Shown in pieces: positions 26,510 through 29,084 of a stretch of DNA of 64,000 nucleotides. A program made the position numbers and the translations under genes. The notes beneath the pieces are model-generated. The model saw only the letters and a list, made by a program, of their open reading frames with translations, was not told where the DNA came from and did not search any database. The first letter of the stretch is position 1; every line of letters starts with the position of its first letter. The DNA comes from Armillaria gallica (Eukaryota > Basidiomycota > Agaricomycetes > Agaricales > Physalacriaceae). The stretch spans positions 7,068,001-7,132,000 of the forward strand of contig JBANDB010000001.1 in the NCBI GenBank assembly GCA_037576215.1. The letters run 5' to 3'.

Positions 26510-28183
26510 ATGGGTGCATGTTTTTCTTCTCGAGGCTTTGAGGTTACGGATACGGAGAAGGCTTTGCATAGGAAAGCTGAGAAGGAGCTCAAGGAGGTGC
26601 GTTTTCTCTCGAGTTGAGGGTATCTGTAGTACTGACAGGCTACACCACTAGGCCAAGGCAAAAATGACGACGCAAATCAAGGTGCGTATACTGTATCGTA
26701 TCCTGAGGAGTACTCTGCTTATATCGCGCGTAGGTTTTACTTTTGGGGTCGGGGGATTCTGGAAAATCAACGGTGCTAAAGGTACGTTTCCATCCTTCAC
26801 GCTACACGATGCTCACCCTCTACAATAGCAAATGCGTCTCATCCATAAAATTCCGTTTACGCCCCAAGAAATCGAGTCGTACAGGCAGCTAACGTTTGAC
26901 AATCTCACCGGTGGCTTGAGATGTATCCTCGATGCGATGGAAGACATGGACCTCAAGGTTTCGGAGGACAACATTGGATATATCGATGTCATCGACAATG
27001 CGCGGTACTTGAAGGATGGAGAACCATACCCGGTGGAGTACTTGGAGCCACTCAAGGCGTTATGGCGTGATCCGGGGATTCATAAAGCGTGGCAGAGGGG
27101 GAACGAAGCAGCATTGCCAGAAAAGTACGTCTCCTCTTATCTTCCTGTTGTTCTTTATGTTCTTATGCAGCGTAGCTTGGAATATTTCTTCTCGGATCTT
27201 GATCGGCTATTTGATCCCCAGTATCTGCCCACTGAACAGGACATCATTCACTGCCGCGTACGAACGACTGGTATTAAGGAAACCGTCTTTTATCTACGGG
27301 AACGTGAGCTCACTATGGTCGATGTGGGCGGCCAAAAGTCCGAACGGCGAAAATGGATACACTGCTTCCAGGATGTGACAAGTATCCTGTTCCTTGTCAG
27401 CTTGAGTGGATATGACCAGTGTCTGGTCGAAGATAAGGATGCGGTATGTGATTAGCATTGATGTCCCGGTAGATCACCGCTCTGATGCCGTCTGATAGAA
27501 TCAAATGCAAGACGCGATGACCATATGGGACTCGATATGCCACTCGCAGTGGTTCAAGTACACTTCGATTGTACGTAGCACCCTCTTATAATCGCGCAAT
27601 CCCTTACGTCAAGATCCGTCTTCCCTTCAGATCTTGTTTTTGAACAAGAACGACCTCTTCGAAAAGAAGATACCCCATTCTGATATCAAGAACTTTTTTC
27701 CGGTGTGTGATATTCTCCTGGGCGTCTATAAAAATTTTCGCTCACCAATCCTTAGGATTTTGATGGTGAGCCAGGTGATGTCCGTGCAGGTCGCGATTAC
27801 TTCAAGCGTCGCTTTTCGAAACTCGCCACTAAGGCGGGCCGACACAAGGAGAGGGAGATATATATTCAGTGAGTTTAGTGATGCGTTCAATGGGATGTGC
27901 TGATGAGCGATTTCCTAGCATAACAACGGCGACTGATACCGCAATGCTCCGGGTTGTGATGGCCGCCGTGGAAGGTATGTTGTGCTCAATTTAATTATCA
28001 TAATACCGTGGATTTTTGACTTGCCCATTTAGAGTGAGTGCCTTTTCCCCTGTTCCATTACCCCCCTCCACTTTCTTCCTGATCATTCCCGACGAACACT
28101 CAACCTTGTCCTATCACCTCTCTCCCCCTTCTCTGTCTAGTATCATCCTTCGGTCCAGCCTTACGAATGCGACGCTATTATGA
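26510..28183 (+). CDS. Heterotrimeric G-protein alpha subunit
   Basis: Eleven-exon model: 26510-26596, 26652-26681, 26734-26781, 26829-27124, 27176-27443, 27499-27570, 27631-27702, 27756-27868, 27919-27974, 28033 alone, 28141-28183. The sum is 1086 nt (361 aa, usual length). The N-terminus MGACFSS offers Gly2 and Cys4 for myristoylation and palmitoylation. P-loop GSGDSGKST; switch I RVRTTGI with the catalytic Arg; switch II DVGGQKSERRKW (Lys where many have Arg, Gln present); FLNKNDLF guanine-specificity motif; TTATDT motif; receptor-contact end IILRSSLTNATLL. It couples seven-helix receptors to effectors at the plasma membrane. No Cys is present four residues from the end, so it is not a pertussis-toxin-type Gi tail. 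The single-base exon is needed to join VE to DIILRSS in frame. Confidence 0.95.
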
Positions 28184-29084
28184 ACTTCCGCTTTTCTTCC
28201 ATTCTTCTGCTTGTGCATGATCTGACTGTTTTCCTCCCCTCCTTTTCTTCTTCTTTACGTCTCAGTTCCGTTTTGTCTAGTAACGTATGTACATCTTTTT
28301 TTTTTCTTGTGCCTTGTCATGATCTGATCTTTGTGAACAGATCCGCGCTGCTCTGCTTTGATTGCTGTCCTATATCCATTTTTTGCGTTTTGTAACATAT
28401 CATGTACTTTCATGATCCTACGACTATCATTACTTCCGGACCTCCCTTACATTATTTTAATCATTATTCGAGATGGACGTGTACATGCAGGTGTGAGAAA
28501 CCAAGTCCAGCTTTGGTCGTCTCCATTATAGTGCTGTGAACGTTATATTTTTACGCGTCGGGTTTCATGGCATATCTTTTACCAGAGCGAGCGCTTAACG
28601 AATACCCGTTGGTGATTCGCTTTCCCCGGGAGGATCTTGACGTGCGCTCTCGACCTATCTCGCTTCACATAGCCGTTGTTTGTGAGGTCATTCGTCAGGC
28701 CAATTTCCTCTACATGAGCCGATAGCAATGTGGCGGAGATCCTTCATCGGCGCGACAACTTAGCGATCGTTCCCGTTTGCATTCTACGATTTTCTTCCAT
28801 TGTCATCAGGTTTTGGAGATCTGACTGATAATGTTGGGATGAATTCAATGACATGCTGTGATGCTCTATCTTGGTATCATAGCACTTTATATATAGAAGC
28901 TGTTCCCGGGCGCACAATCTGGAGGTTTTACGTTGGATTAGAATCGTGTCGCATTGTCAAGGGTTATTATCCTCCACTACCAAAGCGCAAGAAAGCGAGA
29001 AATAAAGGGATTACTGTCGTATTTAGGAAATCTCTGCGCACACTATCCCCAAGGCGATAGTTTTCATCCCGAAAGCTGATTTCC
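28184..29084. other. 3' flank of the G-alpha gene and intergenic DNA
   Basis: Pyrimidine-rich 3' flank up to about 28400. No gene recognised beyond it. Confidence 0.3.

Follow-up and report, generated by a model that had tools for sequence, protein, structure and literature searches.

How can an exon that ends in phase 1 be joined to a terminal exon that begins in phase 2 without loss of the reading frame? The question is raised by a G-alpha gene at 26510-28183 on the plus strand of the window, that is, the whole 64,000-nucleotide stretch of DNA analysed, which corresponds to C1:7068001-7132000 in an assembly of 86 Mb and 28 contigs (G000). On the sequence evidence presented here, it is highly probable that a single base between the two exons, A28033, represents a real and routinely included exon of this Gpa4/GPA2-like G-alpha, and that its inclusion is followed by a choice between two tails.

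Gene model and reading frame

The elements of the gene up to the end of the first tail are the following.

26510-26596, 26652-26681, 26734-26781 and 26829-27124, plus strand: exons 1-4 of the G-alpha body, stop-free in the spliced model
27176-27443, 27499-27570, 27631-27702, 27756-27868 and 27919-27974, plus strand: exons 5-9 of the G-alpha body, stop-free in the spliced model
27975-28032, plus strand: intron 9, 58 nt, GTATGT...CATTTAG, phase 1; at the same position in six of six paralogs, with 54-60 nt
28033, plus strand: predicted one-nucleotide exon A, the middle base of the Asp codon G-A-T; A in six of six paralogs
28034-28140, plus strand: intron 10 to tail I, 107 nt, GTGAGT...TCTAG, phase 2
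28141-28183, plus strand: terminal exon of tail I, T-ATC..., encoding (D)IILRSSLTNATLL and a stop; intact in five of six paralogs

The spliced model that contains A28033 comprises 11 exons and encodes 361 amino acids. The PF00503 profile matches the predicted protein with 385.8 bits (residues 20-350, covering positions 4-333 of the 333 in the profile), as for a full-length G-alpha, and the top PDB matches are G-alpha-q (E 1.3e-83), aligned through residue 357. The model contains the sequences GSGDSGKST, DVGGQKSERRKW, NKND and ATDT; the motifs GxGxSGKS/T, DVGGQ, NKxD and a C-terminal ATDT with the alpha-5 helix are what we take to be the G-alpha GTPase signature. Among the matches listed, the nearest named protein is P0001 from Armillaria solidipes, with 340 of 347 body residues identical, which makes an Armillaria or a close relative the probable source of the DNA; named relatives bear the names GPA2-like or G-alpha subunit 4. 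The genome has a large G-alpha family: PF00503 has 60 matches at exon level, distributed over 25 places. The scores and spans of the matches at C8:3996712 and C13:346363 are identical, and C8:98357-98470 is an isolated fragment with 79% identity to residues 289-326 of the gene and no further exon listed nearby.

Exon 9 ends with GTG GAA G (phase 1), and the exon of tail I starts with T ATC ATC. The earlier note had placed the end of exon 9 before GTATGT at 27975 and the start of the final exon at 28141, and both coordinates are exact. Precisely as it had claimed, A28033 has a GT-AG intron of 58 nt on its 5' side and one of 107 nt on its 3' side, and is a single base flanked by complete AG and GT sites and needed for the frame. 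Inclusion of the base gives GAT (Asp) and the sequence VEDIIL, which restores the frame of the 361-residue protein, whose end reads MAAVE-D-IILRSSLTNATLL. Retention of intron 10, by contrast, gives GAG TGA and a protein that stops after VEE, an immediate stop that is found in five of six paralogs (the exception is L007).

The further assertion that no other GT-AG combination keeps the frame does not hold, as three others do so in the window. Single introns at 27979-28140 and 27982-28140 yield VEGIIIL and VEGMFIIL, respectively. The third combination uses an NAGNAG-like acceptor at 28034 (intron 27975-28034), with the remainder of intron 10 read as coding sequence, and its frame is open in the window. 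This candidate was rejected: it requires an intron-10 length of 2 mod 3, which among the five tail I loci is found only in the window gene, the lengths to tail I being 107 (window gene, L004), 94, 70, 129 and 88 nt.

Conservation among six paralogs and splice-site quality

The paralog set includes the window gene (L004, on C1) and five loci on C13, C8 (two), C18 and C1, four contigs in total. The succession GAAG-GTA...T(T/C)AG-A-GTG(A/G)GT, in which hyphens mark the exon borders, is present in all six. The 12-base block TTTAG-A-GTGAGT has a mean identity of 94.4% among them, against 52.7, 59.1, 50.5 and 48.7% for the bodies of intron 9, intron 10, the spacer and the tail II intron; the single-nucleotide exon is thus kept beyond neutral drift (block 94%, flanking bodies 49-59%). 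In L009 the last exon starts with C, and the resulting GAC retains the Asp. Enumeration of GT/GC-AG introns for each locus and tail, which in L008 covered tail II only, left two introns plus the A as the only VED solution with family spacing in six of six loci.

A search of the 86 Mb with the pattern GAAGGTA-N35-62-TYAGAGTGRGT returned seven matches, six of which are these genes and the seventh lies at C1:5007908, and the reversed control of the same pattern gave no match in 86 Mb. Seven other G-alpha genes (L001, L002, L003, L005, L012, L018 and L022) are uninterrupted at the corresponding place, encode Asp or Glu there and share the 14-residue end; they come from a set of 13 distinct G-alpha loci, in the remaining six of which the pattern detected no end of this kind. 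Exactly one base is needed by the frame and the family spacing, and the A supplies the Asp/Glu seen in the seven uninterrupted genes.

The bodies of L004, L006, L008 and L009 are open, and that of L007 (C8:524k) becomes so once a GC donor is assumed for intron 1. L015 (C8:10k), which is close to a contig end, has a frame break in exon 5. In L008 the tail I acceptor has changed from AG to TG and 11 nt are lost, with tail II kept; L007 retains tail I but lacks the tail II stop. The frame break in L015 indicates that indels can occur in the assembly or in the gene family, and a sequencing or assembly indel at 28033 would put a normal single intron out of phase. That explanation, however, retains almost no probability, as the arrangement recurs in six loci on four contigs and is implied by a VEE-stop end in 34 other named entries among the matches listed. 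Chance, like a sequencing slip, appears an unlikely origin of the A28033 arrangement.

Splice sites were scored with a matrix derived from a small set of 48 homologous introns (45-60 nt) that includes the window's own introns and one misplaced intron (L007 intron 1). The donors at 27975 and 28034 score 11.4 and 4.0, and those at 27979 and 27982 score -11.2 and -3.5, both below the lowest donor of the 48 introns (2.2). The donor at 28034 falls under the donor 10th percentile of this small homologous set (6.3), and the acceptors at 28032 (2.8), 28140 (2.5) and 28265 (2.4) all fall under the acceptor 10th percentile (4.0). The 107-nt intron 10 exceeds all 48 matrix introns in length. At the place of the 27979 donor, four bases downstream of the normal one, L008 and L015 have no GT.

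Homologous proteins and the alternatives to a one-base exon

Three protein searches gave 186 different proteins among the matches listed, 79 from short contigs (jgi, lgn and ena sources, contigs of 1.1-3.2 kb) and 107 named entries from genomes or nr. The first two queries held the Asp and one of the searches scored the tail region itself, so these lists favour complete tails. In 28 of 72 checked short contigs, less than 450 nt remain once the reading frame is subtracted. Ten introns of at least 45 nt would not fit into this space, so that those 28 at least should be cDNA. We infer that the short-contig homologues are cDNA-derived, and they are referred to here as transcript-like.

All 79 transcript-like proteins among the matches listed have Asp after VE and a complete tail, and none of them has Gly at the junction. 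The combination of Asp and family tail is found in none of the 107 named homologues listed: 34 end at VEE, 58 have Gly after VE, 12 have another letter or run on, two (P0142 and P0161) have Asp followed by unrelated residues, and one lacks the motif. Within the first search alone, the matches listed have Asp and tail in 51 of 51 short-contig entries versus 0 of 69 named ones. A family-like tail after the Gly is present in 24 named entries listed, 14 with normal spacing and six with one extra residue; examples are P0001, which ends in SILSSNIRAALL, P0002, P0021 and P0041. In sequence, the six entries with an extra residue fit an annotator's choice of the +4 donor.

These Gly entries, with the nearest protein P0001 among them, speak for a single intron from a cryptic donor at 27979 (GTTGTG) or 27982 (GTGCTC), the six with an extra residue being what the +4 donor would give; both donors are in frame in the window. 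The removal of one such intron would dispense with the one-base exon altogether. Nevertheless, we consider this a very remote prospect in view of the two donor scores, the missing +4 GT in two paralogs, the residues added relative to the family, and the Asp, never Gly, of the listed transcript-like proteins.

The earlier note had also envisaged skipping of the A as a regulatory switch to a frame-shifted tail. The skipped frame is open for 26 codons in the window (VSSFGPALRMRRYYELPLFFHSSACA and a stop), but skipped frames vary in sequence and length between paralogs, and none of the 79 listed transcript-like proteins shows one; the proposal is accordingly very unlikely, though slightly less so than the cryptic donors. 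Still another parse is a [D1,2] stwintron, in which an internal intron at 27975-28034 splits the donor G-TGAGT of an external intron that starts at 27974. Removal of 27975-28034 does bring G27974 next to TGAGTG and creates a good donor. Yet GTGGAA would then be joined to TATCATCC, out of frame, with loss of the Asp present in all 79 listed transcript-like proteins, and we assign this parse the same negligible probability as an indel. In a stwintron, an internal intron interrupts a splice signal of the external one and the frame is kept; in the [D1,2] parse the tail is out of frame. The G-alpha introns resemble stwintrons in that two introns are in immediate contact and probably removed successively, and differ from them in that each intron carries a full set of splice signals and a single base is left between the two.

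The single-nucleotide exon A28033 is thus strongly supported by its presence in six of six paralogs and by the Asp of 79 of 79 listed transcript-like proteins. Excision of intron 9 followed by read-through of A-GTGA, as GAG-TGA, yields a VEE-stop end; the genomes behind the 34 entries therefore very probably have an A adjoining a GTGA donor. Public annotation of this G-alpha clade appears, among the entries listed, to be systematically wrong at the C-terminus. The VEE-stop signatures reach Cantharellales (Tulasnella) and Auriculariales (Exidia), some transcript-like relatives group with Sebacinales (Serendipita), and the one-base exon is probably ancient in Agaricomycetes.

A probable second tail and the receptor-contacting end

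Downstream of tail I, a second set of terminal exons could be joined to the same base.

28034-28265, plus strand: predicted alternative form of intron 10 leading to tail II, 232 nt, with the shared donor GTGAGT and the acceptor CTCAG; skips tail I
28266-28284, plus strand: tail II exon b1, 19 nt, T-TCC-GTT-TTG-TCT-AGT-AAC, encoding (D)SVLSSN; in six of six paralogs
28285-28340, plus strand: internal intron of tail II, 56 nt, GTATGT...GAACAG; 48-56 nt in six of six paralogs
28341-28361, plus strand: tail II exon b2, 21 nt, ATC CGC GCT GCT CTG CTT TGA, encoding IRAALL and a stop; stop in five of six paralogs

Tail II begins 82 bases past the stop of tail I and starts, as tail I does, with T, which gives the same Asp codon G-A-T and a product that ends in DSVLSSNIRAALL. 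One donor is thereby faced with two acceptors, each with a conserved in-frame end, and both tails are intact in four of six paralogs. With five loci each, pN/pS is 0.260/0.507 for tail I and 0.141/0.383 for tail II. In both tails, silent differences are thus more numerous than their share. When drift was simulated from L015, amino-acid changes were as few as observed in 0 of 2000 runs for tail I and 1 of 2000 for tail II. Judged from these substitution patterns, both tails are constrained at the protein level. A branch-point-like motif, CTGAC, lies at 28222-28226, past the stop of tail I and ahead of the tail II acceptor, and also occurs in L006, L008 and L015; by eye, its place is taken by CCGAC in L007 and none was seen in L009. 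Tail II may thus be served by a separate branch point.

Among the 79 listed transcript-like proteins, 46 have tail I (14 residues) and 33 have tail II (32 with 13 residues and one with 12); the latter point to use of the intron 28034-28265. In the first 72 of them, the consensus is D-[IM]-[VI]-L-R-x-[NS]-L-x-x-A-A-L-I for tail I and D-[ATS]-[IV]-[IV]-S-K-N-I-R-x-[IV]-[ML]-L for tail II, to which the later proteins P0163 and P0180 fit loosely. On a tree of the 72 bodies, the tail labels need 18 changes, at least nine of them on well-supported branches; shuffled labels need a mean of 23.1, with 10 of 500 shuffles as low as 18, which indicates mild clustering of the tails. Such clustering is not needed by a model with both tails in each genome. 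Different tails are common among close relatives, which would be the case if each genome had both and the grouping of similar proteins showed one. The closest such pair among the matches listed is P0141 and P0131, with 96.4% identity over 390 body residues and different tails. The Serendipita group holds both types, P0163 being tail I-like and P0146 and P0151 having tail II; P0163 and P0151 are 79-82% identical to P0146, and the named Serendipita entries P0161 and P0162 are 83 and 77% identical to it.

If only tail I were used downstream of a real one-base exon, the tail II exons would be a relic. L007 has a tail II without a stop, and no same-gene pair with both tails was seen among the listed short-contig proteins, which are representatives of 90% identity clusters, so that a pair of isoforms from the same gene would collapse into one entry. 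Conversely, tail II and its splice sites are kept in five of six paralogs with constraint at the protein level, tail II ends 33 of the 79 listed transcript-like homologues, and L008 has lost tail I and retains tail II. On balance we regard a relic as improbable, although it is the most plausible of the alternatives considered. The suggestion in the earlier note of a switchable C-terminus survives in altered form: the end seems switchable through the second terminal exon set and not by skipping the A, and both tails need the A.

The preferred model, an included A28033 followed by two tails, would operate as follows. Removal of intron 9 would leave the A between GAAG and the donor GTGAGT, which would then join the acceptor at 28140 (tail I, DIILRSSLTNATLL) or that at 28265 (tail II, DSVLSSN followed by IRAALL). 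The expected junctions are GTGGAAGATATCATC for tail I and GTGGAAGATTCCGTT for tail II; the junction GTGGAAGTATC or a GGT codon would be contrary to a one-base exon. The A would complete the same Asp codon G-A-T before either tail. The two resulting G-alpha proteins would have a common GTPase body and would diverge over the final 12-13 residues of the alpha-5 helix. Independent recognition of an exon of one base is unlikely. Excision of intron 9 before intron 10 is a likely order, and the reverse order (intron 10 first, then TTTAG-AT...) would be equally compatible. Three ends would be possible: tail I, tail II, and VEE followed by a stop upon read-through of intron 10. A28033 looks like an obligatory step that precedes the selection of one of two receptor-contacting tails.

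The alpha-5 helix of G-alpha proteins inserts its final residues into the receptor. A change of tail would be expected to alter coupling. In mammalian GNAO1 (GoA/GoB), alternative exons change the C-terminal receptor-contact end, over a longer stretch and in an animal gene; we know of no one-base exon in GNAO1. Structure models of the two forms have a helix from residue 337 through either tail (to residue 361 in P0015 and 360 in P0018), with a pLDDT below 50 in the tails, too low for the models to decide between readings. We infer the splicing order, the origin of both tails from one locus, and the coupling of the tails to different receptors. A bolder reading, which we offer tentatively and would give rather less than an even chance, is that the A forms the constant centre of an ancient and regulated splicing switch with three outcomes (tail I, tail II, or VEE without the alpha-5 end) in Agaricomycete G-alpha, by which one body is coupled to different receptors or to none, with paralogs specialised by the loss of one tail each (tail I in L008, the stop of tail II in L007).

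Known one-nucleotide exons and implications

The earlier note had called single-base exons extremely rare. They are indeed very rare, but have already been described in plants, Fusarium and mitochondria. The closest case is CYP621A of Fusarium, which its authors call the first in a fungal gene, and which is kept over 20 orthologs with SRA read support (PMC12940212). According to the portions of that report covered, both are fungal nuclear genes in which a phase-1 end cannot join a phase-2 start, the single base is the middle of a conserved codon, and annotation is hard (PMC12940212). CYP621A is an ascomycete P450 whose base is G in AG-G-GT, with one downstream exon (PMC12940212), whereas the G-alpha exon is an A in six paralogs, lies in Agaricomycetes, precedes two downstream tails and is predicted here from sequence.

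The exon of Arabidopsis APC11 is likewise an A between AG and GT and essential for the frame; it is described as constitutive in a plant gene with one product, and was proved by cDNA and mutated GFP constructs (PMC4674806). The one-nucleotide microexon of plant VPS55 shares the GTRAGT donor after the base, absence from reference annotations and deep conservation, but in the portions covered it is N-terminal coding sequence, and in some plants its alternative form arises from intron retention rather than through terminal exons (PMC8831610). In mitochondria, one base lies between adjacent introns in placozoan cox1 (PMC5436844) and in Ophiostoma rnl, where it is also an A (PMC12308204); unlike the spliceosomal case here, these involve self-splicing group I/II introns in organelles (PMC5436844, PMC12308204).

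Among the open-licence papers listed, no title or abstract opening described a fungal G-alpha with a one-base exon or with alternative tails, and open-licence literature on mushroom G-alpha splicing, mutually exclusive exons and GNAO1 gave, in the parts covered, nothing bearing on the case. The term 'G protein' is absent from the main text of a paper on Schizophyllum splicing (PMC5034255). One-nucleotide exons as such are already known; the apparent novelty is the place of this one before two alternative G-alpha tails, together with its apparent age across Agaricomycetes.

If the model is correct, a G-protein signalling gene would join the very short list of genes with one-nucleotide exons, and this would be the first nuclear basidiomycete example among the open-licence reports found. 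In the public entries listed, this G-alpha clade would have an incorrect receptor-contact end or none, and an alternative receptor-contact tail would have been overlooked. With a single base followed by a choice of acceptor, the gene would be a natural test of how the spliceosome handles a one-base exon. The same gene would test whether mushrooms re-aim G-alpha by splicing.
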